A stretch of DNA of 64,000 nucleotides from Victivallales bacterium. Lineage in GTDB: Bacteria > Verrucomicrobiota > Lentisphaeria > Oligosphaerales > Oligosphaeraceae. The notes under the pieces were generated by a model, which was given only the letters and a program-made list of their open reading frames with translations, made no database searches and had not been told where the DNA came from. Of the stretch, positions 29,733 through 54,427 are shown in pieces. Each line of letters begins with the position of its first letter. Position 1 is the first letter of the stretch. The DNA lies in the NCBI GenBank assembly GCA_017535315.1, contig JAFXUD010000009.1:1-64000 (forward strand), read 5' to 3'. The position numbers and the translations under genes are program-made.

Positions 29733-29757
29733 GTGAATCGAACATAGAAGGAGAATA

Positions 29758-30786: not shown

Positions 30787-30875
30787 AAAATCCAGGAAGG
30801 CGCGAAAAGGCCTGTGTCGCAGTTTCCCGATTGTGATGGAGGTCCTAAGCCCGCATCTTTTTTGTTGCTGTGACT

Positions 30876-32336: not shown

Positions 32337-32392
32337 CGAATTGATTAACCATAACGGGGCAGTCCCTGCCTCAAACCAAAAGGAACATGACC

Positions 32393-33028
32393 ATGAAGAA
32401 AAATCTGCTTAATTGTCTTCTAGCTTCGGTCTTTCTGCTTGCTGGATGTGCCACGACGACTCTCTACGACCCAGAGGTCTCCAACACGGGGATTCGAAAC
32501 ACCCACACCGTCTCCGCTGAGGAACTGAAGAATATCGCCTACGAGGCGATTGACAATGCGATGACGAGTCCGCGCTTCCAGGAGTTCCTGGCCAAGTACA
32601 AGGCCGAGATGCAGAACGAGGCGGCGCGTCCCGTTTTGAAGCTCACGCAGGCCATCAACGAGACCGACGACCCCGATTTGAACCTCGGGCAGTTGACGGA
32701 TCTTTTGAATGACGCCCTGCTCAACAGGGGCATCGTTGATGTGACAATGGCGGAAGGCACTGAGTTGGCTGCCTCCATTGGCGGATCCAGAAACGTTGCA
32801 TATGACCCGAATTTCAATCAGGCAACCGTCGCGAAGCAGGGCACGCTGATTGCAGCGCGTCTGGTGATGCGTCCAAAAGTCATCTCCAACATCACACGCG
32901 ATGGCTCCACGAAAAATGTCGTCCGCACCTTCAAGGTCGAGATGGCGGACATCAACACAGGCATGGTCATCTGGAGTTTCACAAGGCAGATGGGGTTCGT
33001 AAAGTCCCGTGGCGTTTTTGGAAAATAG
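32393..33028 (+). CDS. LpoB-like lipoprotein (penicillin-binding protein activator family)
   Basis: 211 residues from the ATG at 32393, preferred over 32387 because AAAGGA (32379-32384) is then 8 nt away. The lipobox is VFLLAGC (Cys19). The mature protein shows the LpoB/COG3417 pattern: NTHTVSAEELKNIAYEAID, LGQLTDLLNDALLNRGIVDV, TLIAARLVMRPKVISNI, and MADINTGMVIWSF at the end. LpoB in enterobacteria reaches from the outer membrane to activate PBP1b. Family members next to COG3014 and CsgG-like genes probably form a different outer-membrane assembly. cpaB follows after 93 nt. Confidence 0.72.
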   Translation: MKKNLLNCLLASVFLLAGCATTTLYDPEVSNTGIRNTHTVSAEELKNIAYEAIDNAMTSPRFQEFLAKYKAEMQNEAARPVLKLTQAINETDDPDLNLGQLTDLLNDALLNRGIVDVTMAEGTELAASIGGSRNVAYDPNFNQATVAKQGTLIAARLVMRPKVISNITRDGSTKNVVRTFKVEMADINTGMVIWSFTRQMGFVKSRGVFGK

Positions 33029-37211: not shown

Positions 37212-37217
37212 TTGATT

Positions 37218-38099
37218 TTGATTAAGGACTTGCTATCAAATGCATGGTTCGACTACATCGTCGTCTTTGCGGCGGTGGCGTTGAGCATCTATCTGCTTGT
37301 CTCCACGATATACAAGATTTCTTTGGAGCGGTTGGAGAACAAACGCGGCCAGTACGAGGAATTGAAGTACTTCGTGACGTTGCCGCGCCTGCTGTCGTAC
37401 CGTTTTTCTGGCTTTTTCATCATGGGCATTTCGCTTGTGGTCATCCTGCTGGTTTGCGGCGTGGTGAACCCCTTCATCTACATCCCCGTGGGCATCGCCG
37501 CCGCCGTGCTGGGCTGGATGGCTCCGTTGGTTTACTACCGCTGGAAACAGACGCAGAGGAAGGAGCTCTTCGAGGCAAAGCTGCTTGATTTCACCATGGG
37601 GTTGGCCAGCGGCATGCGTTCTGGTCTGGCTCTTCCGCAGGCTTTGGAGGCCACCTCCAAGCGTATCGGAGACCCGATGCAGGAAGAGCTCCAGACAGTC
37701 CTCCGCGAATACCGTTTCGGCATGGAGCTGGCGGACGCATTGCAGAGGCTGAACGAGCGCATGCCCAGCGAGGACATGAACCTGCTGGTCACCACCATCA
37801 AACTGACCACCAAGACGGGCGGCAGTCTCGTCGAGGTCATGGACAAGATGGTCGAGATGATCCGCGGACGCCGCGAATTCCAGGAGCGCTTGAAGAACAT
37901 GACCGCCCAGGGCAAGTTCGAGGCCATTGCGATGTCACTGGCCCCCGTCGCGGCTTTCATCCTGCTCTACATCGTCGATCCTGAACTCATGCGTCCGATG
38001 GTGACGACGGGCATGGGCTGGTGCGGCATCGGCATCGTCGCCGTGATGGTTTCCTGCGGCTACTATGTCATCAAGAAGATTGTTACGATTGAGGTGTAA
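37218..38099 (+). CDS. tadB: Tad inner-membrane platform protein TadB
   Basis: 293 residues, starting with TTG. Membrane segments lie near the N terminus, at about 60-110 (paired helices) and at the C terminus (about 240-285). The central cytoplasmic GspF-type domain has LDFTMGLASGMRSGLALPQALE and ELADALQRLNERMPSEDMNLLV plus TTKTGGSLVEVMDKM. TadB and TadC together form the platform through which the ATPase acts on Flp pilin. It lies 12 nt after FHA-cpaF and 2 nt before tadC. Confidence 0.86.
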   Translation: MIKDLLSNAWFDYIVVFAAVALSIYLLVSTIYKISLERLENKRGQYEELKYFVTLPRLLSYRFSGFFIMGISLVVILLVCGVVNPFIYIPVGIAAAVLGWMAPLVYYRWKQTQRKELFEAKLLDFTMGLASGMRSGLALPQALEATSKRIGDPMQEELQTVLREYRFGMELADALQRLNERMPSEDMNLLVTTIKLTTKTGGSLVEVMDKMVEMIRGRREFQERLKNMTAQGKFEAIAMSLAPVAAFILLYIVDPELMRPMVTTGMGWCGIGIVAVMVSCGYYVIKKIVTIEV

Positions 38100-38101
38100 T
38101 C

Positions 38102-39010
38102 ATGAACAGTTCTGATTTGCTCACTTACGTCATTGTCTTCCTCGTGGTCTTTGTCCCCTACCTGTTTCTGCAATTCTGTCTGGACAACAAGACGCGCAAG
38201 CGAGACGACATCAACATGGACAGCATCCCGTCAGCGTTCCGCATGTGCTTCGGCCTTCTTGGAATGCTTGCCGAGAACGGTGGCAAACAGTTGGCCGCCA
38301 TGCAGGAGAACCGCGCCAAGGATATCAAGAACAAGCTCATCATCGCAGCCATTCCCATGGAGAAGGAGTATGTCTTCGCGGCGGAGGCTCTCTTCGGCAT
38401 TGCGGGCATGGTGTTGCCGCTCCTCTTCTTCATGGTGGTTACCAAGCGCATGGACTTCGCCATCTGCTCGGCACTTCTCTTTGGTCTGATTGGTTTCATT
38501 TATCCCTCCATGACCGTCTCCAGCCTGGCGGAAAAGCGTCAGGAGCTCATTATGAAGAACCTTCCGTTCGCCATCGACCTCATCGGCTCCGCCATGCGCG
38601 CAGGTCTTGACTTCTCCGCCGCCGTCCGCTACTACGTTGGCACCGAGAAGAAAACGAATCCGCTGGCCGTGGAGTTCGGCATCATGCTCCGCCAGATGGA
38701 GCTGGGGAAGACCCGCGTTGAAGCTTTGGAGGATGTGGCAAATCGCGTCCAGACCGATGAGTTCAAGTCCTTCTCGGGCGCTGTCGCACATGGTACCGAA
38801 ATAGGTGCATCCATCGTGGAGACGATGCGTGTACAGGGCGAGGAGATGCGCCGCGCACGCTTCAACCGCGCTGAGCGCAAGGCGGCCCGTGCGCCATCCA
38901 TTATGATTCTTCCCATAGCCGTCTTCATCATGCCTGCAATCTTCGTCGTGATTGGGACGCCTGTTCTCATCAAGATACAGTCCAGTGGCTTAGGAGCATT
39001 AATGCAATGA
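38102..39010 (+). CDS. tadC: Tad inner-membrane platform protein TadC
   Basis: 302 residues. There is one N-terminal membrane span, a hydrophobic pair at about 95-140, a GspF domain (about 160-265; LPFAIDLIGSAMRAGLDFSAAV and RRARFNRAERKAARAPSIMI) and a last span at about 265-285. It is the usual partner of TadB. The GAGG Shine-Dalgarno lies in the end of tadB. Its stop overlaps the start of the next FHA gene (ATGA), so translation is coupled. Confidence 0.86.
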   Translation: MNSSDLLTYVIVFLVVFVPYLFLQFCLDNKTRKRDDINMDSIPSAFRMCFGLLGMLAENGGKQLAAMQENRAKDIKNKLIIAAIPMEKEYVFAAEALFGIAGMVLPLLFFMVVTKRMDFAICSALLFGLIGFIYPSMTVSSLAEKRQELIMKNLPFAIDLIGSAMRAGLDFSAAVRYYVGTEKKTNPLAVEFGIMLRQMELGKTRVEALEDVANRVQTDEFKSFSGAVAHGTEIGASIVETMRVQGEEMRRARFNRAERKAARAPSIMILPIAVFIMPAIFVVIGTPVLIKIQSSGLGALMQ

Positions 39011-40746
39011 AATACCAAATCCGATTTATCGAAGGCGAACTGCTTGGGCAGACCTTCCCGATTGGGGCGAACGCGCTTTCCGTCGGACGTTCCCACTCCA
39101 ATGAAATCAAGCTGACGACCCCAGATGTCTCGTCGCGGCACGTCAACCTTTCGCTTGGCAGTGGTGGTGTCATCATCGAGAACCTGAGCTCGCGGGTGAC
39201 GAAAATTGATGACGTTGCGTTAGCGATGGGCGACCGCAAGCCCCTCATTGCGGGGCAAGTTGTCTCCCTCGGCGGCCTCGTCAAGTTCACGCTTGAGGCT
39301 TTACCCGATGCGCCTGCCGCGAAACCTGCACCGAGACCCACGCCCGCGGCAGTGGCCCCGTCGAACGATGATGATGCGACGAATCCACCACCCCAAAAGA
39401 GCACACCAGCGCCGAAGCCTGCACCCGCGCCGCTAGACAACGATGCGACGGTGCCGCCATCGGCGCCGAAGCCAGCCGCTGGACTCGCCGCACAGCAAGA
39501 CGGCGATGCAACTGTGCCCCCTTCTGCGGCTCCAAAACCCGTGCCCAGGCCAGCTCCAAAGCCCGCGCCAGCACCTGCGAAGCCCGTGCCAGCACCTGCG
39601 AAGCCTGCTCCAAAGCCGATGCCGACTCCAATGCCCACGCCTACACCGACTCCCGTGCCAGCGGGCGGCGATTCCTCCAACGAAACCATCGCGATGCAGA
39701 CGCGCATGGCCTCCGCCGAGGAATTGGAGTACATGAAGAGCAGCCACGAGAAGAAGAAAATACGCAAGACTGGGCTTTTGCTCTTCCTTTTCATCGTTTT
39801 TGTCGGTGCGTTGATTGGCGCATACTATGGTTTTCTTTACAAGGTTCCCGAGAAAAAACTGTCATGGCCGAAGGACGAGAATGGCGTCGAACTGTCGGAA
39901 TACGCCAAGATGGACGGTTGTCCATATATCAACGACTTGCAGGTGAAGTATCCGAACATCCCAGGTGTCGATGTGGCCAGTTCCGCAGCTAAGATTGTCA
40001 TCAAGTCCGCGCTGGGCAAGTATCGTGACGTGCCTCTTCGTCTGACGCTGGAGTATTTCCAGGACAAATCATCTATCACGGTCGAGCGGACGGCCACGTT
40101 GGAGAAGTGGATGGCCAGCAAGACGACGGGAAGCGAGAACTGGAACTTCGACCTTATCCAGCCCATCGCCTTCTACCAAAGCAAGCATGGCATCCCCTAC
40201 CTCAGCGTTCCCTATAGCCGAACAGAAGACAACGAGTCCTACGTCGGCTATGCCGTGCAGATCCGCATGGCGGACTGGGTTTTCATCCTGATGAAGGAGA
40301 TTCCCACGCGAGACCGCTGGCGCGCCGAGTGGTATATTCAGCAGAGTTCCTTCCTGGCATTTTCGGATAAGTTCCTGATGAACCACTGGGAGGGTACCAG
40401 TGATTTCCAAAAGGGTAATCCTGCGGCCATCGTGGCGGAGGCGAAGTCGCTACTGCGTAGCCGCACGCCAACCGTCTGGCCCAAGGCGCAGTATCTGCTT
40501 CGCAGTGCGCTGTGCCAGGCGCAGGCCGCTGGGAATGCGCAGGTCGTCGCCGACGCGGTTGAGCTGGTTCGCGAGCTGCGTGACAGCCAGATTGAGTATT
40601 TCAACCAGCAAAAGATCACCTATCTGCTGGCAAAGAACCAGAAGAACGACAAGGAGATGAAGAGAATCAGTGCGGATTTGCGCGCGGTTTTCTCCTCTGA
40701 AGAAGATTACAGATTTCATAAAATCAGGCAAGACAAATGGGATTGA
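39007..40746 (+). CDS. membrane FHA-domain protein with Pro-rich linker
   Basis: 579 residues. An FHA domain occupies about 5-98 (VGRSHSNEIKL at 26-36, SSRHVNL at 42-48). A Pro/Ala/Lys-rich linker (about 100-222) contains three repeats of D-x-D/N-D-A-T (Thr125, Thr148, Thr169), and just after it NETIAMQT (225-232). A membrane segment is at about 256-278. The remaining 300 residues are an unrecognised domain, presumably periplasmic. The linker threonines resemble those in the kinase encoded downstream and are candidate phosphosites. It is coupled to tadC and overlaps the next gene by 10 nt. No Tad family known to me has this architecture. Confidence 0.75.
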   Translation: MKYQIRFIEGELLGQTFPIGANALSVGRSHSNEIKLTTPDVSSRHVNLSLGSGGVIIENLSSRVTKIDDVALAMGDRKPLIAGQVVSLGGLVKFTLEALPDAPAAKPAPRPTPAAVAPSNDDDATNPPPQKSTPAPKPAPAPLDNDATVPPSAPKPAAGLAAQQDGDATVPPSAAPKPVPRPAPKPAPAPAKPVPAPAKPAPKPMPTPMPTPTPTPVPAGGDSSNETIAMQTRMASAEELEYMKSSHEKKKIRKTGLLLFLFIVFVGALIGAYYGFLYKVPEKKLSWPKDENGVELSEYAKMDGCPYINDLQVKYPNIPGVDVASSAAKIVIKSALGKYRDVPLRLTLEYFQDKSSITVERTATLEKWMASKTTGSENWNFDLIQPIAFYQSKHGIPYLSVPYSRTEDNESYVGYAVQIRMADWVFILMKEIPTRDRWRAEWYIQQSSFLAFSDKFLMNHWEGTSDFQKGNPAAIVAEAKSLLRSRTPTVWPKAQYLLRSALCQAQAAGNAQVVADAVELVRELRDSQIEYFNQQKITYLLAKNQKNDKEMKRISADLRAVFSSEEDYRFHKIRQDKWD

Positions 40747-43085
40747 AGTCCAAAAAAGAGCTTAAGCTAAGACTTGAGCATGAAGGCAGGGTGCTGTACG
40801 AAATCTCCGCTTCGGAGATAACGTCTGAGATTACCATTGGGCGTGCCCAGGACAGTACCTGGTGCATCCCCGCGACAGACCGTGCGGCCAGCAACAAGCA
40901 TGCCGCCATTGTGAAGAAGCACGGCAGCCTGGTGGTTGTGGACCGTGGCAGCCGAAACGGCATCTACTTCCAGGGGGCGAAGGTGCCTGAGCACAAGCTG
41001 GCTGCTGGGGACCAGGTGGGCATTGGCGACTGCCGCCTCTATGCGGAGATGCCAGAGGCCACCGCAGGCAAGGGCCCCGAGCGCGAGTTCAATCAGCTGG
41101 AGCAGCTCAACGGCGAAAAGAAGGGCACCATCTACAAGCTGGACAAGCCCAATGTCCGCCTCGGCTCCGCCTCCGACTGCGAAATCATCCTGAACGATTC
41201 CGTTGTCTCACATTTCCATGCCGCCATTGAGCAGAAGAGCGATGGCAGCAGTTGGATACGCGACCTTGGGAGCCGCAACGGCACCCAGGTCAATGGCACC
41301 CCCTTGTCGGGTTCCGCCAATGACAGCGGACGCCTCCTCAAGGACGGCGACATCATCACCATCTCCTATATTGAGCTGAAGTATTGGGACAAATACGCGG
41401 TCCACGTCCGCTCCCACTGGATACTGAAGACGATTACGGTGGTTTTGACCATCGCGATCATGCTGATGGGGTACAACGCATGGCAGTCTGCCCGTCCGTC
41501 CGCGAAGAAGGAGATTGACAATGCACGCGAAGCGGCGCGAGTTTGCGACTTCGACAAGGCGCGCGTCCACTTGGAGAATGCCAAGACGGCGCGCCAGGCG
41601 GAGCGCTACCGCTCGGAGCGCAAGGAGCTTTCCGCCCAGGTTGACCAGTGGGAGGAGACAGTGAAGAATTGGGCGGAGGTCAAGGACCTCCTCAAGAACA
41701 AGAAGTGGATTTCCGCCAACAAGCTTCTTAGCCCCATGCTTAGCCAGAACATGGAGATGTGGCGCTGGAACGACACGGATGCCAATGTGGCGAAAAACGA
41801 GGCTCTTGCCGCAAAGCAGGTAGTCGATGCCTATCTGGAGGGGCGCAGTGTTCTGGAAGACGAGGAGTCCAGCCTGGAGCGTCTGCAGAACTCCACGGAT
41901 ACTCTTGTCTCCCAGATTGCCGCTTTGCAGAGCAAATCGCTTGACTTCTGTGGCGAGCTGCTGGCCTACTCCTCCGATGTCGAGACGGAGTTGAAGCTGA
42001 CGACCACTTCCCTGCGCGAAATAGAAAAGCGTCTTCAGGAGCTGGATGCCCTGGAAAAATTAGACGATGTCGTGCGCGGTCTTGAAAAGATTCGTGATGA
42101 TGCGAAGGCGCATGGGGATGAACGCGCCAAGGCCAAACAGCGCTATTCGACGAAGCCCCTGCGCATGGCGAAGGATGTTCTGGAGCCCCTTTACAAGCTC
42201 CAGAAGGCGAAGGTTGTCCTGGACGGCAATATCGCCGCCGTCGCCGCCTTGCAGTTTGACAAGAAGAGCAAGACCCTGCCTCTGCCCACCGTCGAGGAGT
42301 GTGCCGTCTATCCCGTCATGGCGGACAAGCGGATGCTCATCGAGAAGCTCTTCAAGCAACTGGATACGGACGCCCTCCAGTTGGAGCGTATCGTGAAGTC
42401 CTTGAAGAACGCAGGTCTGGAGCTGGGCAAGACCCCGCCGTGCGTGGCCGCCCTGGCGGATACTGCCGCCATCAATGCCGTGTTGGATTGCGACTGCTTC
42501 AATCTGCCCATTCCGAAATACAGCCGCACGGAAGGGACGAGCCAGTATGACAGGATTCTAGGCGTCGAAACCTTCGTCGATTTTCTTTCGCAGTTGCCTG
42601 GCGAATTCGACTCCAGTATCTTGGAGGAGCGTCCCTTTCAGCCTGAAATCTTCAAGGCGCGCAACCTCTACGGCTATCTGGAGACGCTGCTGGCTTTCCT
42701 GGAGAAGGATACCCTGAAGATGCTCAAGGAGTTGAAGACGAACAACAAGGTGATGGAGCTGGCGGTTGGCGTGGATGACATCCTCATGCAGCGGGACGCG
42801 CTGGTGGAGCAGCTTTTACAGCGCTACCAGGCCTCCGAGAAGCGTGACGGCGTCATCGCTGGTGGCATGGCGCTTCTGCTGGCGAAGAACAAGGTACTGC
42901 CTTCCGACATGGGCGAAGAGGTTCAGGCCAAGTACCGCCGCATCCGCCAGAAGATTCTGGCACTGGACGAGGGTGAAAAGACTCCCGAGCAGATCATCGA
43001 AAACCGCAAGAAGGTACTTGAAATTGGCATTCCAGGCGATTCCATGGTCAAACCCGCCTGGGTGCTGGAACGACCTGCGAACTGA
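40737..43085 (+). CDS. membrane protein with two FHA domains and long helical region
   Basis: 782 residues. FHA domain 1 spans about 10-105, with IGRAQDS (34-40), SNKHAAI (52-58) and RGSRNGIYF. FHA domain 2 spans about 118-215 with SHFHAAI and LGSRNGTQVNG; its canonical GR is GS (Gly143-Ser144), so phosphothreonine binding by domain 2 is doubtful. A membrane segment is at about 230-247 (LKTITVVLTIAIMLMGY). From 258 on the chain is almost wholly helical with coiled-coil potential, probably periplasmic. It lies between the first FHA protein and the pilin genes. Function is not known; a scaffold linking phospho-signals to the pilus machine is an inference. Confidence 0.75.
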   Translation: MGLKSKKELKLRLEHEGRVLYEISASEITSEITIGRAQDSTWCIPATDRAASNKHAAIVKKHGSLVVVDRGSRNGIYFQGAKVPEHKLAAGDQVGIGDCRLYAEMPEATAGKGPEREFNQLEQLNGEKKGTIYKLDKPNVRLGSASDCEIILNDSVVSHFHAAIEQKSDGSSWIRDLGSRNGTQVNGTPLSGSANDSGRLLKDGDIITISYIELKYWDKYAVHVRSHWILKTITVVLTIAIMLMGYNAWQSARPSAKKEIDNAREAARVCDFDKARVHLENAKTARQAERYRSERKELSAQVDQWEETVKNWAEVKDLLKNKKWISANKLLSPMLSQNMEMWRWNDTDANVAKNEALAAKQVVDAYLEGRSVLEDEESSLERLQNSTDTLVSQIAALQSKSLDFCGELLAYSSDVETELKLTTTSLREIEKRLQELDALEKLDDVVRGLEKIRDDAKAHGDERAKAKQRYSTKPLRMAKDVLEPLYKLQKAKVVLDGNIAAVAALQFDKKSKTLPLPTVEECAVYPVMADKRMLIEKLFKQLDTDALQLERIVKSLKNAGLELGKTPPCVAALADTAAINAVLDCDCFNLPIPKYSRTEGTSQYDRILGVETFVDFLSQLPGEFDSSILEERPFQPEIFKARNLYGYLETLLAFLEKDTLKMLKELKTNNKVMELAVGVDDILMQRDALVEQLLQRYQASEKRDGVIAGGMALLLAKNKVLPSDMGEEVQAKYRRIRQKILALDEGEKTPEQIIENRKKVLEIGIPGDSMVKPAWVLERPAN

Positions 43086-43413: not shown

Positions 43414-43755
43414 ATGACAAGCATGAAACTCAAACTTCAGCGTGCAAAACGCACAAAACTCGGACGCTTCCTGTGCGCCCTGCTGGGTGACCAGTGCGGT
43501 GCCGTGGCCATGGAGTACGTTGTGATTGCCCTGCTCGTTGCAGCCGCCGTCGTCGGCATCGTGATGGTCTTCGGCAGCCGTATTGCCAACATGTTCACGC
43601 AATCCACCAAGGCTCTCGCCACCGAAGAGACCAAGATGGCTGACCTGGCCAAAGAGGTGTCTGACTCCCGTGCTAACGATATCAAGCGTGTCGAAGAGCA
43701 GAAGAAGCAGGGGGACACTATCCGCGGCTCAGACGGCAATACTACTGAGGAGTAA
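43414..43755 (+). CDS. Flp-type pilin
   Basis: 113 residues. A basic leader of about 30 residues (KLKLQRAKRTKLGRFLC) precedes CG/AVAMEYVVIALLVAAAVVGIV, the class III prepilin cleavage site (Gly, then Glu +5 and Tyr +6) and the hydrophobic helix. A helical charged tail of about 50 residues follows (LATEETKMADLAKEVSDSR). Strong C-ending codon bias and an AAGGAG Shine-Dalgarno suggest high expression, as expected for the major subunit. Mature Flp pilins are usually 50-60 residues, so this one (about 80) is large. Confidence 0.82.
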   Translation: MTSMKLKLQRAKRTKLGRFLCALLGDQCGAVAMEYVVIALLVAAAVVGIVMVFGSRIANMFTQSTKALATEETKMADLAKEVSDSRANDIKRVEEQKKQGDTIRGSDGNTTEE

Positions 43756-43968: not shown

Positions 43969-44511
43969 ATGAGCCCCACGTTGTTCATGCTGATACTGGC
44001 AACCCCCTGGTTGGGGGCGTTGTGCTGGTATGATTGCAAGACCCGCCGCCTGCCCAACTACTTGACACTGGGCATGGCGGTGGCCGCGCTTGTCTGGCGC
44101 CTGGGATATGGACGTCTGCCGATGTTCCTGAACGGCGTCTATGGTGGCGTGGCCGCGGGGCTTTTCCTGCTCATTCCGTTTCTGCTTCGCGGAGCGGGCG
44201 GCGGCGACTTGAAAATGCTCTTTGCAACAGGGTGTCTATGCGGTTTGCACCGCATGGCAATCCTGCTTTTTTGCACGTCGGCTGCTGGTTTCGTGATGGC
44301 GGTTGCGATGCTGATTGCTGGAAAAGTGGATGGCAGCCGCCTGAAGCACTGGGCGCGCTGCATCTTTGACTGGCGCTATGATAGAAAGGCGGGACGCGAA
44401 GCGCTGCCGCCGAAAACGGACGAACGAGTCCGTTTGCCTTTTGGCGTGGCCATCGCCATCGGCGTGTGGCTCACATTGTTAATCGAGATTTTTGCACAAA
44501 ATGCGGCATGA
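43969..44511 (+). CDS. cpaA: prepilin peptidase CpaA/TadV
   Basis: 180-residue A24-family aspartic peptidase in the inner membrane. The catalytic aspartates are in WYDCKTRRLPNYLTL near residue 24 and in GAGGGDLKML near residue 81. About five hydrophobic segments are visible. It should cleave the class III signals of the Flp and TadE-like proteins encoded around it. A cytoplasmic insertion at about 120-155 is rich in Lys/Arg. The stop overlaps the tadE start (ATGA). Confidence 0.86.
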   Translation: MSPTLFMLILATPWLGALCWYDCKTRRLPNYLTLGMAVAALVWRLGYGRLPMFLNGVYGGVAAGLFLLIPFLLRGAGGGDLKMLFATGCLCGLHRMAILLFCTSAAGFVMAVAMLIAGKVDGSRLKHWARCIFDWRYDRKAGREALPPKTDERVRLPFGVAIAIGVWLTLLIEIFAQNAA

Positions 44512-45173
44512 GATTCTTTAATCGCGACATTCTTGACGACAGAGGTACGGCTCTGATGGAGTTTGTGCTGATCATGCCGATTTTCTGCTTTATGATTTTC
44601 TGCATCATCCAGCTGTCGCTGGTTTGCATGGCGAAGCAGCTGACGCATTATGCCGCCTATTCGGCGGCGCGTGCGGCCATCGTCTATAACCCAGCCGAAT
44701 ACAGCGATGGCGGTACGTTCTATTCGAACCAGGGCGTTGTCCACCGTGCAGCCTGCACGGCGCTTTCCTGGCTGGGGCAGATGCCTGGCGGACCCGACCC
44801 GCTGAACGTGCCAGGCTGGGGCGCAGTTCCTGGTTCTGGCTACATCAGCCAGCAGGTCTTCATCGACCCCAATCGCAGCGAGATTTTCACGGATGTGCCT
44901 GCCGTCAAGGTGACGGTGGTGTTCCGCTATCCGCTCCACATACCCTTTGCAGGGACCATCATCAGCTATTTCAACGCAGGCGGCAAGGCAGATGGCGCCT
45001 GGGATTTAGTTGGAATGCTCCCGACGGACATGTCCGAGAAGCTGAAGAACAACAAGCTGGGGAGTACCCCCTCCTTCCTGATGTCGGAATCCTGCATTAT
45101 GCCGTTGCCGTGGGACAACAACATGTTCCCACGCGCGGAAAAAACACCCTACCTTGGTACGGAAGGACTGTAA
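44508..45173 (+). CDS. tadE: TadE-like pseudopilin
   Basis: 221 residues from the ATG at 44508, which overlaps the cpaA stop. The frame is open further upstream but only inside cpaA. Leader RFFNRDILDDRG precedes the cleavage site G/TALMEFVLIMPIF, with Glu at +5 and Phe at +6, then a hydrophobic helix. The rest is a periplasmic domain with HYAAYSAARAAIVY, typical of TadE. It is a minor pseudopilin of the Tad machine. It is followed without a gap by the TadG-like gene. Confidence 0.83.
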   Translation: MRFFNRDILDDRGTALMEFVLIMPIFCFMIFCIIQLSLVCMAKQLTHYAAYSAARAAIVYNPAEYSDGGTFYSNQGVVHRAACTALSWLGQMPGGPDPLNVPGWGAVPGSGYISQQVFIDPNRSEIFTDVPAVKVTVVFRYPLHIPFAGTIISYFNAGGKADGAWDLVGMLPTDMSEKLKNNKLGSTPSFLMSESCIMPLPWDNNMFPRAEKTPYLGTEGL

Positions 45174-48062
45174 ATGAGAAATCGCGTTTTAACCATCGCC
45201 ATCAAGAAGTTATCCTCTATCGGCTCCGATGATAACGGGGCGGTGTTGGTGATTACGCTGGCGATGTTCTTCTTTCTCTTCATGCTTGTCTCGGGCGTCT
45301 ATACGATCGGCGAGTCCGTTCATCGGCGTATAGAGTTGCAGAACGCCTGCGATGCCGCTTCTTACTCTGCTGCCGTTGTGCAGGCGGACGGGCTTTCGCG
45401 CATGGCGACTGTCAACCGCGCCATGGCGTGGACATACGTCCAGATGGTTCGTCGCCAACTGGACTACATCACCTACCGTTGGCTGAAGCTCACCTACAAG
45501 CAGTTCAAGGAAGACCGCGACGAAGCAGAAGACTGGCATTTCTACCTTCTGCCATGTGACAAGAAGCACTACAAGAAGGGCGTTGGCTGGTGGTGTGGCC
45601 AAGGACCCAACGACGGTATGGACAAGATACGCCTTAATCAACGCTTCAATGTCGAGCTGAAGGATCTCAAGAAGGTACTGGACGACTTGGAGTCCAGCAT
45701 GGAAGGGGGCAGTGGCGGTAGCAACAGCACCAATTCCTTCGGCCATCCAAGCAGCTCTGGCGGTTATGGGGGCAACTCATACTTTACTGGCGCCGACAAT
45801 ATGTTCACCGTGAACAACCCCGCTTTCCCCGCCAAGAAAGAGGCGTACGAGAAAATACAGGCGATGACTGCGGCTGGCAATCCGCCGACCAATGCACAGA
45901 TTGAGCAAATCTACAAGGAGATTTTTGTCCGTAACGACCCCGAGCCTGACCCAAATGAGATGCTCGGGAATCAAAACATCGGGCAGGCGAAGTGGAACGC
46001 TTGGTATCAACGTTTCAAACAATTCACGGAAATGAACAAGATTACTCAGGGTGACTACGTCTGCACGCGCTGTGGCAAGCCGATGCTGGCTGCCAACCAT
46101 AGTCAGTGCATGCAGAACATGATGAACGATTTCAACTCCATGGCAGAGCAGCAAAAGCAACAGCAACAACAAAATCCACAGCCTGCCAAATCCAAGTACA
46201 ACTGGGGCGGCAAGCTGGCCGAGCAGATTCAGAACGACAAGCAGACCATCGAGATGATGAACCTCTCTCTGGACGCCATTGCCATGAACATGACTCTGGG
46301 CATGAAGGAGGCAGCCAGGCACGTCTTGGAGTACAACCTCCCGAAGGACAAGGACGGCGGGATTTCCAGTGATTTCCTCTATGCCATCCACGTGCCGACG
46401 GGTGCCAACCCATACGGGGCTGCCGAGAACGACGACGCTTCCCTGGCGGGCATCTTCTCGCCTGTCTATAACACCGAGGAGTACGAGACCCTCTTCCTGA
46501 ACATGATGGACGGCGAGGTGCATGACTCCCTTGTCAAGTACTTCACTGAGGACAGCAGCTCTGGGGGACTTGGTGGCATGCTTGGCGGGCTTTTGGGCGG
46601 AATTCTTGGCGGCGGCGACAAGGGTGGCGGCGTCGAACAGTGGTTCATCCGCACCTATCCTGAAGAGACGCTGAATGCCAATGAGAAGAACATCAAGCCT
46701 ACTGCGCAGTCCTATTATGCGGAGGGCATCAGTCGTTCCTACAAGAACGCGAACCGCGAGGAGGGCAAGTGCCTTCTCGGCCAGAGCCGTTCGAACCACA
46801 TCATGTCCGTCGGCGACAACCTTGGCATTGGTGGCGGTAGCGACATGTTCGGCCTCGGCAGTATCTTCAGCTCGTTCTTCCAGTCAATCATGGATCAGAT
46901 CGACCTCTCTCCCACCTGTCTCAATCGCCGTTCGCGTTTCCCCGAGACATGCCGCAAGGTCAGCGATTCTGTGGGGCTTGTCTCGCAGTACCGCTGGTGC
47001 AGCGCCAAGTGGTTCTGCTTCTTCACCATTTACCTTTTCGGTATCGAGTGGCACCATCCGTTCTTCCCATTGTTCTACTGCTCCGACCACGGCTACGGTT
47101 TCATCTGGGTTGGGGACGAGATTGATGCAGCCCTCCATGGCATGACGCGCAGCGACTATCGCAACTGTTTCATGGGATTCGACGACACCTTCATCCTCAA
47201 GGGACACGCCCGAATATACGGCGACGACAAGGATTTGGTGGATGAGAACTACACGGGTACTCCCGCGCGTCCTTGGCTACTCAACGAGAAGTTCTTCGGG
47301 GGCGACGGCACCATCTCAGTTGGTCTTGCCCGCCGCCAGCGGAATCCCTGGCAGCGCGTCATGAGCTGGTTCAACAACTACGACGCCAAGAACCCCAACG
47401 TCAGCAACGGCATCATGTCCCTCTTCAACATCAACCCCAATAACTTCATCTGGACGGCCAGCACCGCACGCGCCGCATACCGCCGTTACAAGAATGCCGA
47501 TGCCAATGGGGGCAGTTCTAGCTGGTTCAATCTGGATAACGTTAATGTGATTGGAGCTATGCCACCATCACTTTTTGGCCAAAATGGCTGGAATGGCAGC
47601 GGGCAGTCAAACGCACCGCAAGGGCAGGGCGAGCGGAGTTATGACATGAAGTACGATGTCTCCGCCTGGCCCGATGCCCTCGAAATCGACTACGACTCGG
47701 GGGCTACGAGCGCCATGAAAAAACTGCGTGTCGGCTGCGTCTGCGACAAGGGCAACAATATGGAGCGCCTCCAGTACGCCTGGAACCTCGGCACGCCCGA
47801 CTGGGATGCCACCCTCCTGCCCGTGCGCTACAGCAAGGGTTACATCGCCAAGTATGAAGCCTGGAACGGCAGCGGCAGCAGCTGGGCTGGCGGTGCCGCC
47901 GCTGGCGAGAGTGTCTTTGAGATTCTCGCGGGTCTCAAGTGGAACGGCCTTGGTGACAACTCCGACAATGAGGTGCGCGGCGCCGATATCATGGAAACCA
48001 CCAACCAGGCGGGCAAGGGCCTCAGCAGCCTAAGCGAACTCCAGAAACTTAAGATATACTAA
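45174..48062 (+). CDS. very large TadG-like protein
   Basis: 962 residues. The N terminus has the TadG pattern: DDNGAVLVITLAMFFFLFML, then RIELQNACDAASYSAAVVQADG. There is no Glu at +5, so cleavage as a pseudopilin is uncertain. The remaining 880 residues are far larger than usual TadG. Features include a zinc-finger-like CTRCG...C segment (about 292-310), Gly/Ser/Asn-rich stretches (about 182-210 and 460-485), a Gln run (about 327-335), a Cys/Trp-rich block (about 580-640), and many Trp/Tyr residues. It is probably a large periplasmic or surface component, perhaps a tip adhesin. It overlaps the next gene by 1 nt. Confidence 0.75.
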   Translation: MRNRVLTIAIKKLSSIGSDDNGAVLVITLAMFFFLFMLVSGVYTIGESVHRRIELQNACDAASYSAAVVQADGLSRMATVNRAMAWTYVQMVRRQLDYITYRWLKLTYKQFKEDRDEAEDWHFYLLPCDKKHYKKGVGWWCGQGPNDGMDKIRLNQRFNVELKDLKKVLDDLESSMEGGSGGSNSTNSFGHPSSSGGYGGNSYFTGADNMFTVNNPAFPAKKEAYEKIQAMTAAGNPPTNAQIEQIYKEIFVRNDPEPDPNEMLGNQNIGQAKWNAWYQRFKQFTEMNKITQGDYVCTRCGKPMLAANHSQCMQNMMNDFNSMAEQQKQQQQQNPQPAKSKYNWGGKLAEQIQNDKQTIEMMNLSLDAIAMNMTLGMKEAARHVLEYNLPKDKDGGISSDFLYAIHVPTGANPYGAAENDDASLAGIFSPVYNTEEYETLFLNMMDGEVHDSLVKYFTEDSSSGGLGGMLGGLLGGILGGGDKGGGVEQWFIRTYPEETLNANEKNIKPTAQSYYAEGISRSYKNANREEGKCLLGQSRSNHIMSVGDNLGIGGGSDMFGLGSIFSSFFQSIMDQIDLSPTCLNRRSRFPETCRKVSDSVGLVSQYRWCSAKWFCFFTIYLFGIEWHHPFFPLFYCSDHGYGFIWVGDEIDAALHGMTRSDYRNCFMGFDDTFILKGHARIYGDDKDLVDENYTGTPARPWLLNEKFFGGDGTISVGLARRQRNPWQRVMSWFNNYDAKNPNVSNGIMSLFNINPNNFIWTASTARAAYRRYKNADANGGSSSWFNLDNVNVIGAMPPSLFGQNGWNGSGQSNAPQGQGERSYDMKYDVSAWPDALEIDYDSGATSAMKKLRVGCVCDKGNNMERLQYAWNLGTPDWDATLLPVRYSKGYIAKYEAWNGSGSSWAGGAAAGESVFEILAGLKWNGLGDNSDNEVRGADIMETTNQAGKGLSSLSELQKLKIY

Positions 48063-48874: not shown

Positions 48875-49208
48875 GGCAGGTATCATAGTTTTGGGGGTGT
48901 TCCTGTTTCTGTCGTCGTTGGTTGCGCAGCAAAACGCGCCCATGGCGAATTCTCAGCATAACCTGAAAGGCGGCTGGGAGGAGCAGGGAAAGTTGGATAT
49001 GTCCCTGTCAGCCGCGCGGGTGCGTATGAAGACCCGTTTCGAGTTGCGCCAGTTCCAGCTCAAGCATGAGATTGAGATGGGGAAGCACAACGAGCGATGC
49101 CTCATGCTCTGGGAGAAGGAGGGAAGGCAGTTTATCGTGATGCTTTGGCGAATGGATGTCAACCTGACTGGTTTCTCCATTGGAGAGGTTAAGAATGACA
49201 GAAACTAA
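48864..49208 (+). CDS. small secreted protein, unknown
   Basis: 114 residues starting at 48864, inside the end of the TadE-like gene. It has a signal peptide (RAGIIVLGVFLFLSSLVAQ). The mature protein is about 90 residues, charged, with a basic middle helix (AARVRMKTRFELRQFQLKHEI) and a beta-like end (QFIVMLWRMDVNLTGFSIG). No family is recognised. Its end overlaps the phosphatase gene by 14 nt, so it belongs to the same transcript and may be an envelope factor of the Tad machine. Confidence 0.65.
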   Translation: MRSRAGIIVLGVFLFLSSLVAQQNAPMANSQHNLKGGWEEQGKLDMSLSAARVRMKTRFELRQFQLKHEIEMGKHNERCLMLWEKEGRQFIVMLWRMDVNLTGFSIGEVKNDRN

Positions 49209-50034
49209 TGCATATTCATACGTGGAGGCCGCGGCCATCTCGGACATGGGGAAGGTGCGTGGCAACAACGAGGACTCCTATCTTTGCGCCCCCGAGGCAG
49301 GCTGCTATGCGGTAGCCGATGGCATGGGCGGCGGAGACGCAGGCGAGGTCGCCTCTGCGACGGTCGTGGAATGCCTGAAGAAAGCGGTTGAAAGCACGGC
49401 GTTGGATTCGCCAGGCTGCCGCAAGTACGCCATCCAGCAGAGCCTCCACAAGGCAAACGGCACCATCGTCAGGTACCGCGATTCCCACGATTTCAAGTCC
49501 ATGGGCTCCACGGTCGTGATGCTGGTGCTAAATCCCTGGAACGCGGACGAGCCGTTTGTGTGCCATGTGGGCGACAGCCGTCTGTACTGTTTCCGTGATG
49601 GCGAGATGTTCTGCATCACTCGCGACCACAGCATGGGCAACGAGATGAAGAGCAAAGGCATCAAGGACGCGATATCTGACAAGGTGGCGAAGGCTCTGAC
49701 CCGCGTGATTGGCGGCAGTGGTCTCTTGGTTCCTGAGTGGCAGAAGATTGCGATGTGCCCCAATGATCTTTTCCTAATCTGCTCGGATGGCATCTTGGTG
49801 CTGCCCGATGAAGAAATCGAACAGGTGATAAAGGAGAAGAAGGAGCCCCAGACGATTGTCGAGGAGCTCAAGACGAGGGTGCTTGCCGCAGGCGCGCCCG
49901 ACAACTTGACCGCCATCTGCATCCGTGCCGCCAATGAGCTTCCCTTGCCAGAAGAAGTTGACAAATATGATCGTGAAGAAAGCGATCTCCTGCTGAAGGT
50001 CGCTGAAGAGAGAAAGGACTATGGAGCAAACTAA
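49195..50034 (+). CDS. PP2C-type Ser/Thr protein phosphatase
   Basis: 279-residue cytoplasmic phosphatase. The start at 49195 is set by GGAGAGG (49182-49188). Metal-site motifs are in order: SDMGKVRGNNEDSYL, YAVADGMGGGDAGE, FVCHVGDSRLYCFRDGEM, RDHSMGNEM, LFLICSDGIL, and GAPDNLTAICI. This is a complete PP2C of the bacterial signalling type (PstP/PppA-like). It would dephosphorylate Thr/Ser on targets of the kinase encoded two genes downstream, so reversing FHA docking. It overlaps the second cpaF by 14 nt. Confidence 0.9.
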   Translation: MTETNAYSYVEAAAISDMGKVRGNNEDSYLCAPEAGCYAVADGMGGGDAGEVASATVVECLKKAVESTALDSPGCRKYAIQQSLHKANGTIVRYRDSHDFKSMGSTVVMLVLNPWNADEPFVCHVGDSRLYCFRDGEMFCITRDHSMGNEMKSKGIKDAISDKVAKALTRVIGGSGLLVPEWQKIAMCPNDLFLICSDGILVLPDEEIEQVIKEKKEPQTIVEELKTRVLAAGAPDNLTAICIRAANELPLPEEVDKYDREESDLLLKVAEERKDYGAN

Positions 50035-51100
50035 TTCGTTTTTGATTCTGTTTCTTGCGCCCGTCAGGCAGTTCCTGGAGGATGATGACGTCTCGGAAAT
50101 CCTCATCAATGGGCCAAACCAGATCTACATTGAACGTAAGGGAAAGCTGGAGAAGACCGACGCGAAGTTCGTGAGCGAGCCATCCCTGCGGGCTGCGGCC
50201 TCCAACATCGCCAAGTCTGTGCAGCGTATGCTGAACGATGACAATCCGCGGCTGGACGCGCGCCTCCCCGACGGCAGCCGTGTCCACGCCGTCATTCCGC
50301 CCTTGAGCCGTTGTGGCACGGTCATCGCCATCCGTAAATTCAAGAAGGACACGCTGACCATTGACAAGATGCTGTCGTACGGTAGCTTGTCACCCGACGC
50401 CCAAAAGCTCATGCGTGCGGCGGTTCTGCTACACAAGAACGTGATTGTCTCAGGCGGTACCTCCTCTGGTAAGACCTCGGTGCTGAACGCCCTGAGCAGT
50501 TTTATCCCTGCCAACGAGCGTGTGCTGGTCATTGAAGACGCAAGCGAACTCCAGCTCCAGCAGGAGCACGTGGTCTGCTTCGAGACGCGCAAGCCCGACA
50601 AGAACGGCAATGGCGAGGTCACCATCCGCGATTTGATTGTGTCGTCGCTGCGTCTTCGCCCCGACCGTCTGGTCATTGGTGAAATCCGTGGCGGCGAAGC
50701 TCTGGACCTACTCCAGGCGTTGAACACTGGTCACGCGGGGTCTATGTCCACCATCCACGCGAACACGCCTCTGGACTGCTTGTTCCGTATGGAAACCTGT
50801 GCGCTGCTGAGCGGTGTCGAAATACCGCTGATGGCTCTTCGTTCGCAGGTCGCCTCCGCCATTGATGTCGTGGTCCACACTGCACGTCTGTCGGATGGTT
50901 CCCGCAAGACCATGGCCATCTCCGAGGTGCTGCCTCTCAAGAACGGCGAATACCAGACACGCGATCTGATTGCCTGGCGTACCGAGGGGATGACTCCCGA
51001 AGGGAAAGTGAAGGGCTCGTTTGTCCTAAAGGAGAAGCCCACCTTCGCTGAGCAGGCCTCCCTCATGGGCATCGACCTCCCCGTTTATCCAGGCGAATGA
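50021..51100 (+). CDS. second CpaF/TadA-type ATPase without FHA domain
   Basis: 359 residues, shorter than the first CpaF because the FHA domain, linker and N-terminal helical bundle are missing. It begins directly at the pilus-ATPase core (FLEDDDVSEILINGPNQIYI). Walker A is GGTSSGKTS (145-153). RLVIGEIRGGEALDLLQAL and the His box TGHAGSMSTIHANT are intact. All catalytic motifs are present, so it should be active. Resemblance to the first CpaF is clear through the core. Having two TadA-type ATPases in one Tad locus is unusual and suggests division of labour, for example extension and retraction, or two substrates. Confidence 0.86.
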   Translation: MEQTNSFLILFLAPVRQFLEDDDVSEILINGPNQIYIERKGKLEKTDAKFVSEPSLRAAASNIAKSVQRMLNDDNPRLDARLPDGSRVHAVIPPLSRCGTVIAIRKFKKDTLTIDKMLSYGSLSPDAQKLMRAAVLLHKNVIVSGGTSSGKTSVLNALSSFIPANERVLVIEDASELQLQQEHVVCFETRKPDKNGNGEVTIRDLIVSSLRLRPDRLVIGEIRGGEALDLLQALNTGHAGSMSTIHANTPLDCLFRMETCALLSGVEIPLMALRSQVASAIDVVVHTARLSDGSRKTMAISEVLPLKNGEYQTRDLIAWRTEGMTPEGKVKGSFVLKEKPTFAEQASLMGIDLPVYPGE

Positions 51101-51116: not shown

Positions 51117-53474
51117 ATGAGTAACTCAATGATTCTGTCCCCAGGGGACAAGTTTGAAAAATACATCATTGAAAAAGAGCTGGGACATGGCGGGATGGGT
51201 GCGGTCTATCTGGTCCGCCACAGCATCCTTGATACTGTATTTGCTCTGAAAGTGCTCTACCCCGAAGTCGCGGGGCGGGACAAGCAGTTTGTTGAGCGCT
51301 TCATCCGTGAGGGTCGCCTCGCTGGGCAGATCCGCCACGAGAACTTGATTGCCGTCTATGATGCTGGACAGAACGAGAAGAACGGGATGTATTACCTGGT
51401 GATGGACTTTGTGTCAGGCGGCAGCGTACGGGACAGAATCAAGAAGAGCGGTTATGTGGATATGTTGGAGGCTATCTCCATCGTCCGACAGGTGGCGTGC
51501 GCTCTGCAGGCTGCCCAGAACCACAATATGGTTCATCGGGATATCAAGCCCGACAATATCATGTTTGATGACAAGGGTGTGGTTCGCCTAGCCGACCTTG
51601 GTATTGCAAAGGCCACCGACGACCGTGACACAGGTTTGACGATGGAATCATCCGTATTTGGTACTCCCGCCTATATGTCCCCTGAGCAGGCGCGCGATTC
51701 CAGCAAGGTCGATACCCGTGCCGATATCTACAGCCTCGGCGTCGTCTTCTATGAAATGCTGACGGGACGCCGCCCATTCAGCGGCGATACCACCATCGAA
51801 ATTTTGACGAAGGTCATCGACAACACACCCGCGCCCGATGTGCGCACCTTCTCGAAAGACCTTCCCGCCGACGTGGCGAAGCTCGTTGCAGATATGCTGG
51901 AGAAGGATCGCGAGAAGCGCGTGAAATCCCCCACCGAACTTATTAAGCGTATTGATGCACTGGATCTGTCTGCATACCAGCCTGGTGCTCAAAATAGGGC
52001 GGACGAGGTCGAAGTGACGATGCCCACAATGGCTTCGCCTGTATCTGTCCAAGCACCCGATGTGACAATGCCGACGATGGCTACCCCTGTGGGGGCGCAA
52101 AACGCGCCCTCTGGTTCGGCTGAGCCGCCTCGCACGGATGTGACGATGCCGACAATGGCCTCGCCTGTGGCGACTTCTGTCAAAGAGAATGCGATGGTTT
52201 CTTCTGCAGCTCCAGTTCCCAAACTGGAGTTGAAGAAAAAAACATCTGGCACATCGCCCCAAGCGGTTTCCTCTGCACCAGAAGCTCCACAGGAGACGAT
52301 GGCGATGCCGACTCCTCAGAGCGGGGGCGCAACAGGCAAGCCTGTCAAGAGCGGTTTTGTGTTGATATTGGCTTTGGTCGGAGTGTTTGCTTTCCTTTTC
52401 ATAGGTGGTGTTGGAACGCTTCTTTTCCTTAAGAGAAATGCCATTATGGCCAAGTTCGGCAAGACGCAGCTTACTCAGACAAATGAACCAGAACCCATCA
52501 CTGTTTCAGGTATGCTTCAATCACCAGAGATAAATCCAGACACAACGAATCCTGGCAGTGTCTCTCCGCAGACAAAAGAGGTTACAGAGCCAGAAGTGAA
52601 AACTGTCGATACATCGAAAACTTCGACTGAGACGGTGTCAGTGGAGCACGGCTCTGTGTCGCCGAAGCCAGCCGAGGTGAAGCCAGCTACATCTGCCAAG
52701 CAAGAAACGGTGGAGTTTGGATTGACAGAACAGACTGAGCAGACAAACATATCAAACACTGCCAATGCAGAGGCATCAGCTGCCAACCCTCAAAACGTAT
52801 CGGTCTGGCGGCGTTTCACGAATGGCGCACAGCAGTTTGGGAAGCAAGTTGCGAAGGACACACGGGAATTTGGCCAGCAGGTTGCACATCAAGTCACGGG
52901 AATCAATCAGCAAATGCAGTCCTCTCAGCCAGATGCCCAGCAGCACACGCAGCAAAATGAACAAAAAACAACTCAGCCAAATGAGCCTCCTGTTCAGCCG
53001 CCTGTTGTTCAGGAACAGGGAAATGCTGGCGGGACGCAGAATGGTCTTCAGAAGTTAGGCAGTTTTGAGGAAGGAGGCGTTGTGCTTTTTGGCGCAAATG
53101 ATGTGCGAAACACCTCCTTCTTCAGGGAGTTGTCGAAGACTGATGCCTTTAAAGCTGTCGGTTTCCAGGAGGCTAGCAAAGATGTGAAGAAATGGAATAG
53201 CCAGCTAAGTGAAATCCAGAGCTATGGCCCTGCGTTTGTAATTGTAGTCCTGTCAGAGGAAAAGAACGACTACAACTTCAAGAAAATGCTGCAAGGGCTT
53301 GTGAAGGTTTTGCCTAGCAGCAATGGGATGGTACTGGTGGCATCAGGTAATCCTGCTGTCTTTGATGAAGTGAAGGACACCTGTAATACCGTCGGCATGT
53401 ATTTCCGAAAATGGGCACCAAACAAGGAATTGGCAAACTATGTTCTGGAACTGAAAAGGGAGCTTGGCTGGTAA
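51117..53474 (+). CDS. transmembrane Ser/Thr protein kinase with motif-rich linker and C-terminal alpha/beta domain
   Basis: 785 residues. The PknB-type kinase domain (about 12-275) has Gly loop GHGGMG (23-28), Lys45, HRDIKPDN (140-147), DLG (160-162), GTPAYMSPE (182-190) and DIYSLGVVFYEMLTG. The juxtamembrane linker (290-412) has three V-T-M-P-T-M repeats at 300-305, 316-321 and 342-347, plus ETMAMPT (393-399). A membrane segment is at about 414-438. After a Thr/Gln/Pro-rich stalk (440-645) comes a compact alpha/beta domain (about 650-785; VVLFGANDVRN, FVIVVLSEEKN, MVLVASGNP) outside the membrane, possibly a sensor. It is the last gene of the locus. The linker threonines are likely autophosphorylation sites, by inference. 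Confidence 0.86.
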   Translation: MSNSMILSPGDKFEKYIIEKELGHGGMGAVYLVRHSILDTVFALKVLYPEVAGRDKQFVERFIREGRLAGQIRHENLIAVYDAGQNEKNGMYYLVMDFVSGGSVRDRIKKSGYVDMLEAISIVRQVACALQAAQNHNMVHRDIKPDNIMFDDKGVVRLADLGIAKATDDRDTGLTMESSVFGTPAYMSPEQARDSSKVDTRADIYSLGVVFYEMLTGRRPFSGDTTIEILTKVIDNTPAPDVRTFSKDLPADVAKLVADMLEKDREKRVKSPTELIKRIDALDLSAYQPGAQNRADEVEVTMPTMASPVSVQAPDVTMPTMATPVGAQNAPSGSAEPPRTDVTMPTMASPVATSVKENAMVSSAAPVPKLELKKKTSGTSPQAVSSAPEAPQETMAMPTPQSGGATGKPVKSGFVLILALVGVFAFLFIGGVGTLLFLKRNAIMAKFGKTQLTQTNEPEPITVSGMLQSPEINPDTTNPGSVSPQTKEVTEPEVKTVDTSKTSTETVSVEHGSVSPKPAEVKPATSAKQETVEFGLTEQTEQTNISNTANAEASAANPQNVSVWRRFTNGAQQFGKQVAKDTREFGQQVAHQVTGINQQMQSSQPDAQQHTQQNEQKTTQPNEPPVQPPVVQEQGNAGGTQNGLQKLGSFEEGGVVLFGANDVRNTSFFRELSKTDAFKAVGFQEASKDVKKWNSQLSEIQSYGPAFVIVVLSEEKNDYNFKKMLQGLVKVLPSSNGMVLVASGNPAVFDEVKDTCNTVGMYFRKWAPNKELANYVLELKRELGW

Positions 53475-53552: not shown

Positions 53553-54299
53553 TTAACCTTCGCTCTCGTCCTTGTTAAGGATTTCATTGCGCTCGATTGC
53601 CATGATGGCACGGATAATCTCCTTTGGATCTTCAGTGGTCTTGCAGAGCTTGATGAAATCCTTGTTTCTGGCAAGGATGGCTATTTTCCCCATCATGTGC
53701 AGGTGCAGTTGGATATTCTGCGCAATGATAAGGAAGAACAGGTGAATCGGCTTCTTATCTACAGGAGTACTTTCAATGGTTTTGCCATCTTCTTCCTCGA
53801 ATGTCTTTGTGTATTTAATGCCCGCTTTAGAACGGCCAATAACCACGCATCCTGAAGAGGACAATGTGGGAATGGTATCACGGGTATGGGGAATGGCTAT
53901 GCCATTACCGACACCCGTGTTCAGAAGCTTTTCACGATCCAGACATTTTTGGCGCAAACCATCAATATCCAGAACAAGACTGTTGAATACTTGGGAAGGC
54001 GTGAGTTCCGTAATGGCACTTTCCATGTCTGTAGCCTTCATGTCCAGAATGATGCGCTCTTCATTGATGAGACGGCTAATCGGAATCTTCAACGTCGATT
54101 GAGTCAATGCGGAGAATTCGACGGCCTCATCACTAGGGATTGGTTTTTCTGGGAAGAAAAGACGATCGATTTGGCTACCACTAAAACGCCATTGTCCACC
54201 GATTTTCTTGCCTTCAATTTGACCTGTCTTGATCATGCGCTGGATGGAGCGCTCGTTCAATTTCAAATACTCTGCCAATTCTTTCAATGTGTAAATCAT
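53553..54299 (-). CDS. PTS EIIA domain protein with N-terminal excisionase-type HTH
   Basis: 248 residues from the ATG at 54299, set by a perfect AGGAGG. Residues 1-50 are a MerR/excisionase-like helix-turn-helix (MIYTLKELAEYLKLNERSI and GQIEGKKIGGQWRF). Residues about 72-235 form a fructose/mannitol-type EIIA (PtsN-like) domain with the phospho-accepting His138 in GNGIAIPHTRD. An extra loop (about 162-184) interrupts the usual fold. Proteins with this pairing are probably regulators that read PTS phosphorylation state. No PTS permease genes are nearby, so a purely regulatory role is likely. Targets are unknown. Confidence 0.82.
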   Translation of the reverse strand: MIYTLKELAEYLKLNERSIQRMIKTGQIEGKKIGGQWRFSGSQIDRLFFPEKPIPSDEAVEFSALTQSTLKIPISRLINEERIILDMKATDMESAITELTPSQVFNSLVLDIDGLRQKCLDREKLLNTGVGNGIAIPHTRDTIPTLSSSGCVVIGRSKAGIKYTKTFEEEDGKTIESTPVDKKPIHLFFLIIAQNIQLHLHMMGKIAILARNKDFIKLCKTTEDPKEIIRAIMAIERNEILNKDESEG

Positions 54300-54427
54300 C
54301 GATAATCCTCCTTTAAAGATGACAAAACATGACAATAATAACACAATATATGCTTTTTCCCATTTGTCAAGTGGATTATGCTATTTTTTTCAATTTAATA
54401 ACTCCTTTAGAGAATTGATAAACGACA

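Follow-up and report, generated by a model that had tools for sequence, protein, structure and literature searches.

A Tad/Flp pilus operon of Victivallales (Lentisphaeria) also encodes a Hanks-type kinase, a PP2C phosphatase, and three FHA proteins, among them a CpaF ATPase. The analysis concerned the Thr-rich repeats in the linkers of the kinase and of the FHA protein designated as FHA1. The window, meaning the whole stretch of DNA analyzed, is 64,000 nucleotides long. The gene order is secretin, FHA-CpaF, TadB, TadC, FHA1, FHA2, Flp pilin, prepilin peptidase, TadE, TadG-like, PP2C, second CpaF, and kinase, all on the + strand. A search within one literature library revealed no paper connecting Lentisphaerae, FHA, and Tad.

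The secretin gene (33908-35422; Pfam Secretin, 1.1e-12) is followed by a CpaF/TadA ATPase with an N-terminal FHA domain (35496-37205; T2SSE 1.2e-67, FHA 6.5e-17) and the platform proteins TadB and TadC (37212-38099 and 38102-39010; T2SSF). FHA1 (39007-40746; Pfam FHA 8.7e-6) consists of an N-terminal FHA domain, a disordered Pro/Ala/Thr linker, a transmembrane helix (TM), and a C-terminal domain predicted to be non-cytoplasmic, based on the model and the alignment. FHA2 (40737-43085) has two FHA domains and a TM. The Flp pilin (43414-43755) was recognized with a Pfam score of 30.1 bits, slightly below the gathering score of 32.2, and the prepilin peptidase (43969-44511), TadE (44466-45173), and the TadG-like protein (45174-48062) were all assigned by Pfam. 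The components expected of a Tad/Flp locus (CpaF, TadB/C, secretin, Flp pilin, prepilin peptidase, and TadE/G) are thus present. The PP2C-type phosphatase (49180-50034; PP2C_2 7.5e-11; Stp1-like 6e-49, below the cut-off) is likely the counter-enzyme to the kinase. A second CpaF/TadA ATPase without an FHA domain (50021-51100; T2SSE 7.8e-52; TadA family) lies immediately upstream of the membrane Hanks-type Ser/Thr kinase (51117-53474; 785 aa; Pfam Pkinase 1.3e-52 at residues 16-270).

One Tad locus thus carries two distinct CpaF/TadA ATPases (35496-37205 and 50021-51100), with an FHA domain on one only; the motors may have different tasks, or extension and retraction may be divided between them. 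Just upstream of the Tad genes (27564-33028), proteins with an autotransporter beta-domain and CsgG-like and LpoB-like proteins are encoded. Convergent with the kinase gene, an HTH_17 domain fused to a PTS EIIA-type domain is encoded on the - strand (53553-54344). The locus order is kept in named Victivallales/Lentisphaeria metagenome contigs, several of them from goat, horse, and buffalo gut samples, and a sample of 338 genomes from across the phylum has FHA1 relatives in 36. Judged from gene content, one conserved gene order joins the membrane kinase, PP2C, and the FHA proteins, the FHA-CpaF motor among them.

AlphaFold predicts for the kinase a catalytic domain, a disordered linker, a TM, a second disordered region, and a folded C-terminal domain. 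The residues characteristic of Hanks-type kinases, K45, H140-R-D142 (the HRD motif), and D160-L-G, are invariant in 10 orthologues. The kinase has no PASTA match in Pfam and scores 287.5 bits against NCBIfam PknB_PASTA, whose cut-off is 450, and it is therefore not assigned to the PknB/StkP PASTA family. Residues 645-785 (53049-53471) form a confidently folded alpha/beta domain past the membrane helix without any Pfam match; in the model, it is a candidate sensor domain. The AlphaFold models of FHA1 and the kinase have a mean pLDDT of 59 and 61, respectively, and are suited to domain limits and disorder only. Low confidence was seen at FHA1 residues 102-235 and at the juxtamembrane linker of the kinase, residues 291-412 (51987-52352, + strand; pLDDT < 50). 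Both Thr-rich stretches are therefore predicted to be disordered cytoplasmic linkers leading from the folded domain to the membrane helix.

Three copies of [D/E]VTMPTM are found in the kinase linker: EVTMPTM at residues 299-305 (52011-52031), and DVTMPTM at residues 315-321 (52059-52079) and 341-347 (52137-52157). A membrane-proximal ETMAMPT at residues 393-399 (52293-52313) is similar to ETIAMQT of FHA1; all four are on the + strand. The sequence-only reading had reported these repeats, and the sequence bears out each of them. The repeats are above the level of linker shuffles (p 0.001). As a degenerate DNA pattern, [D/E]VTMPTM matches the 4.9 Mb genome at 3 positions, each within the kinase linker, and the reversed pattern at 0.

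The activation loop of the kinase, DTGLTMESSVFGTP (51609-51668, + strand), includes T175, which is invariant in the kinase alignment. Its T172 and T175 show a T-x-x-T-hydrophobic spacing identical to that of the linker modules. The activation loops in most orthologues fit [DE]T-x-[LMV]-T-[MVI], again with the spacing of the linker modules.

The proposal that Thr positions should be conserved inside otherwise variable linkers largely holds. The kinase linkers are unalignable between genera, and Thr positions persist in them. Modules of the form T-x-x-T-[hydrophobic] are found in 12 of 12 genus-level kinases, each enriched over shuffles (p <= 0.044), with 1-5 modules per linker. When the reference kinase is excluded, 33 modules are observed against 2.5 expected by shuffling, a count for the generalized form T..T[MLIVF], which was settled after sequence inspection; only TM.T and [DE].T.P were preset from the reference alone. 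For the preset motif TM.T, the 11 other kinases together have 15 occurrences, where 0.33 are expected, and the maximum in 5000 shuffles is 5. Among Thr-Thr spacings of 1-8, spacing 3 alone is strongly enriched (45 vs. 13.3 +/- 3.4).

The modules vary from genome to genome: VTMPTM in the reference species and G006, VTLPTM in G017, five copies of [VE]TLQT[LM] in G027, LTMET[IV] and KTMATI in G025, T[LI]PT[VI] and TQMTV in G020, three copies of TALTID in G021, TA[LP]TLD in G013, TLPTM in G049, TMVTM in G050, and four copies of [D/E/A]VTMPT[VM] in G171. The last kinase belongs to another family; its catalytic domain is 58% identical and its FHA1 only 29%. Within the modules, Thr is the best conserved residue, and the neighbours vary (M/L/I/V and P/A/E/Q). 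The modules persist across at least nine genera, with the rest of the linker replaced. Compared in this way, the tandem T-x-x-T-hydrophobic modules are a feature in which the Thr pairs are retained through the turnover of the remaining linker.

Several controls were negative. FHA1 linkers lack the kinase module (0 TM.T). The Pro/Ala linker of FHA-CpaF, which served as an internal control, likewise carries no Thr array. A scan of 15 other kinases in the reference genome gave 3 scattered matches and no array. Two paralogues encoded away from FHA1/FHA2, with catalytic domains approximately 53-55% identical, have short linkers in which the module is absent. The acidic context of the kinase-linker Thr is weak beyond a few genomes, with 11 matches of a loose regular expression against 11.4 expected. 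A diverged kinase from a sister species (L052, on contig C512 of G019, 3527-6367) has a quite different array, four copies of KTQATVVYPEEE. An FHA1-like paralogue on another contig of the G019 genome (L070) is without acidic-Thr repeats; these two may represent a separate system that uses a code of its own.

The FHA1 linker includes three acidic-Thr repeats on the + strand, identified in the alignment: DDDATNPPPQ with T125 (39367-39396), DNDATVPPSA with T148 (39436-39465), and DGDATVPPSA with T169 (39499-39528). The DATxPP repeats around these three residues and NETIAMQT at residues 225-232 agree exactly with the sequence-only reading. All 8 orthologues retain T148, T169, and the flanking Asp unchanged, and other linker positions vary. 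FHA1 linkers contain three to seven acidic-x-Thr units, such as D-A-T-V-P-P, D-K-T-V-P-P, G-K-T-V-I-P, and D-E-D-R-T-A-I-D. The motif [D/E]-x-T-x-P is also over-represented elsewhere (13 vs. 4.6 expected in 20 other FHA1 linkers), with the matches mostly in the nearest relatives; the distant FHA1 linkers have acidic-x-Thr with no Pro at +2. Acidic upstream residues and Pro at +2 are enriched at PknA-dependent phosphosites of M. tuberculosis (PMC7164672). One FHA1 relative (L082, 6022-8001) has about six [GD]KT[VM][IL]P / GRT units, among the longest single-unit arrays in the more distant FHA1 relatives.

Directly before the TM-containing helix of FHA1, the alignment and the model revealed a juxtamembrane element, NETIAMQTRMASAEELE (39679-39729, + strand). 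Its consensus, T-x-x-[MLIV]-[QRK]-T-R-x-A-[ST]-x-[DE]-E, is nearly invariant; among genus-level FHA1 relatives, T227 is conserved in 19 of 20 and T232 in 20 of 20. In the model, the S/T-x-E-E end could act as a helix cap, and thus only the two preceding Thr residues are proposed as phosphosites.

The sequence-only reading had regarded the motifs of the two linkers as echoes of each other. This does not stand: the kinase T-x-x-T-hydrophobic module and the FHA1 acidic-x-T unit differ. The likeness between ETMAMPT and ETIAMQT in the reference kinase exceeds shuffling (p 0.0015), and the genome has three occurrences of ETxAMxT: one in FHA1, one in the kinase, and one in a stop-to-stop frame of 68 codons, which probably does not represent a gene. 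As a conserved echo, it was rejected, for among orthologous kinases ETMAMPT is found in the reference species only. Thr windows of the kinase and FHA1 are no more alike in the same genome than in different genomes (p 0.30), and a shared or co-evolving motif was dropped on this result. What the two linkers have in common is their design, a Thr array within a disordered juxtamembrane stretch, and not a sequence. The interpretation of the repeats as phosphoacceptor and docking sites is partly supported, by the Thr conservation and the predicted disorder, and loses the single shared motif.

FHA domains contact phosphopeptides through Arg, Ser, and Asn (PMC4037201), and the four FHA domains of FHA1, FHA2, and FHA-CpaF were examined for Gly-Arg, Ser-x-x-His, and Asn contacts. 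The first domain of FHA2 keeps all canonical contact residues (R, S, and N) in 13 of 14 sequences and is the sole complete one, and it is thus the first candidate reader. FHA1 and CpaF-FHA keep GR and SxxH, and the Asn is lost in 13 of 13. In the second domain of FHA2 (residues ~136-215), the phosphate-binding Arg is lost in all 14 (Ser in 13 and Ala in 1), and conservation is good elsewhere in the domain; it is probably structural and non-phospho-binding.

The linkers were also compared with the activation loop of their own kinase. The similarity exceeds that of shuffled linkers with a combined p of 3e-6, and the control with FHA1 linkers gave p 0.61. The likeness is significant in 6 of 12 kinases (G020, G050, G171, G025, G021, and G017) and absent in the remaining 6, the reference included (p 0.20); in these alignments, it is a tendency rather than a rule. 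In G020, the linker has SETQMTVDS and the loop NETQMTMASS, and in G050, the linker has RTMVTMATE and the loop DTLVTMASA. A test pairing linkers with their own versus other loops (p 0.003) was set aside because it is confounded by relatedness, and the shuffle-based version was used. The resemblance makes autophosphorylation of the modules plausible.

It is probable, by analogy with known systems, that the linker repeats are the phosphoacceptor arrays of a threonine-phosphorylation circuit in the Tad locus, which would recruit the FHA proteins and switch the pilus machine. The analogies from which we infer phosphorylation, FHA binding, and pilus control are PknB-FhaA, PpkA-PppA-Fha, and Rv1747. 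Kinase clustering, or a signal via the C-terminal domain, would trigger autophosphorylation of the loop and the linker modules. Given their likeness to its activation loop, the modules would be phosphorylated by the kinase, probably in trans. Once phosphorylated, the array would offer FHA domains a multivalent ligand, possibly a di-phosphothreonine one, with FHA2 domain 1 as the best candidate reader, followed by CpaF-FHA and FHA1. The kinase may also phosphorylate FHA1 at the acidic-Thr repeats and the juxtamembrane Thr pair. FHA1, FHA2, and the FHA-CpaF motor would gather round the active kinase, so that Tad machine assembly or activity starts, and PP2C would reverse the recruitment and the switching.

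A more specific version is put forward tentatively: the linker could be a tunable multivalent di-phosphothreonine scaffold, built of tandem activation-loop copies that are autophosphorylated on paired Thr residues, read by FHA domains, and condense the Tad motor and platform at the active kinase. If true, bacteria would have an equivalent of the Rad53-Dun1 di-phosphothreonine code, here in control of pilus assembly. The recruitment of FHA proteins by Thr arrays in general would offer a mechanism for the FHA proteins of Tad-like systems such as Kil and for the FHA domain fused to class III CpaF motors, so far unexplained.

The same loop likeness permits another interpretation, in which the modules imitate a substrate: as pseudo-activation-loop segments, they would regulate the kinase in cis or in trans by competing for the active site, their phosphorylation would relieve this competition, and an FHA partner would be unnecessary. 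The combined p value, with cases such as G020 and G050, speaks for it. By itself, however, it explains neither the several tandem copies nor the three FHA proteins in the locus, and the linkers of PknB, PrkC, and StkP are phosphorylated yet dispensable for catalysis (PMC12077195). This interpretation is unlikely, though it survives better than the other rivals.

Ranked second and likewise unlikely, the modules could be docking motifs for a partner independent of phosphorylation, such as the second CpaF, the phosphatase, or the platform, with a structural role for Thr. Short, repeated, and conserved modules within a disordered linker would suit docking, as would the position of TRxA[S/T]xEE of FHA1 at the start of the juxtamembrane helix, given the possible helix cap. 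The constancy of Thr amid varying neighbours and the co-location of kinase, phosphatase, and FHA genes argue against it.

Neutral low-complexity expansion of a spacer by slippage is quite improbable. The linkers are Pro/Ala-rich and length-variable, and a relative in G156 has a TVG micro-repeat, as slippage would predict. Nevertheless, the three module copies of the reference linker are identical in protein (VTMPTMA) with 3-4 synonymous differences pairwise, which indicates that they are not a recent DNA duplication and argues for selection on the peptide. The recurrence of the module in at least nine genera also disagrees with slippage, as does the equally Pro/Ala-rich CpaF linker, which is without a Thr array in 13 orthologues, and this reading is already largely refuted. 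O-glycosylation of the Thr sites instead of phosphorylation is extremely unlikely and was rejected on topology: Thr/Pro-rich repeats can bear O-glycans, and the repeat sequences themselves are the only point in favour, but the linkers are cytoplasmic, placed between the catalytic or FHA domain and the TM, and Bacteroidota-type O-glycosylation requires Asp immediately before Ser/Thr, whereas the acid here is usually at -2.

The preferred reading, phosphoacceptor arrays recruiting FHA proteins, has parallels in several characterized systems. In Mycobacterium tuberculosis, the phosphorylated PknB linker binds FhaA (Rv0020c), according to the account of Roumestand 2011 given in PMC12077195. The locus resembles that account in combining the juxtamembrane linker of a membrane Hanks kinase with an FHA protein, between which we infer phosphorylation and binding here. 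In contrast to PknB-FhaA, there are 1-5 conserved di-Thr modules, no PASTA domain was found, and the kinase gene lies in a Tad pilus locus. Juxtamembrane linkers of kinases are generally considered to vary too much for conserved phosphosites, a conclusion that the StkP paper draws from the lack of similarity between bacterial linkers (PMC12077195). The Thr-pair module, conserved over at least nine genera, allows the peptide, the kinase, and the FHA partners to be named and directly tested.

PpkA, PppA, and Fha control the T6SS (PMC3953482), and PpkA and Fha form condensates that recruit components (PMC12607579). As in that pathway, a kinase, a PP2C, and FHA proteins are encoded with a secretion machine, but the machine here is Tad/Flp, no T6SS gene is found among the annotated neighbours, and FHA1 scores 47.7 bits against the T6SS Fha/TagH family (TIGR03354), below the cut-off of 120.25. 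Rv1747, controlled by PknF/PstP, has FHA domain(s) and a disordered linker as FHA1 does, and its phosphorylation drives reversible clustering; Rv1747 is an ABC transporter, whereas FHA1, with its single FHA domain, is a membrane protein of the Tad locus. The ligand of Dun1-FHA in yeast Rad53 SCD1 is the di-phosphothreonine peptide NI(pT)QP(pT)QQST (PMC4037201, Table 1); its T-x-P-T spacing of 3 equals that of VTMPT, a likeness of spacing only with unrelated eukaryotic proteins.

Among Tad systems, the class III FHA-CpaF motors (PMC12019362) are Tad ATPases with an N-terminal FHA domain, as is the one encoded here. The Tad-like Kil system of Myxococcus (PMC8460266) also has several FHA proteins in its locus. 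The difference from Kil is that here the kinase, the phosphatase, and the Thr arrays are encoded in one operon; the word "kinase" is absent from the text of the Kil paper (PMC8460266). The theme of a kinase linker with an FHA partner is already known, and what is new is its Tad pilus setting and its unusually clear conservation.
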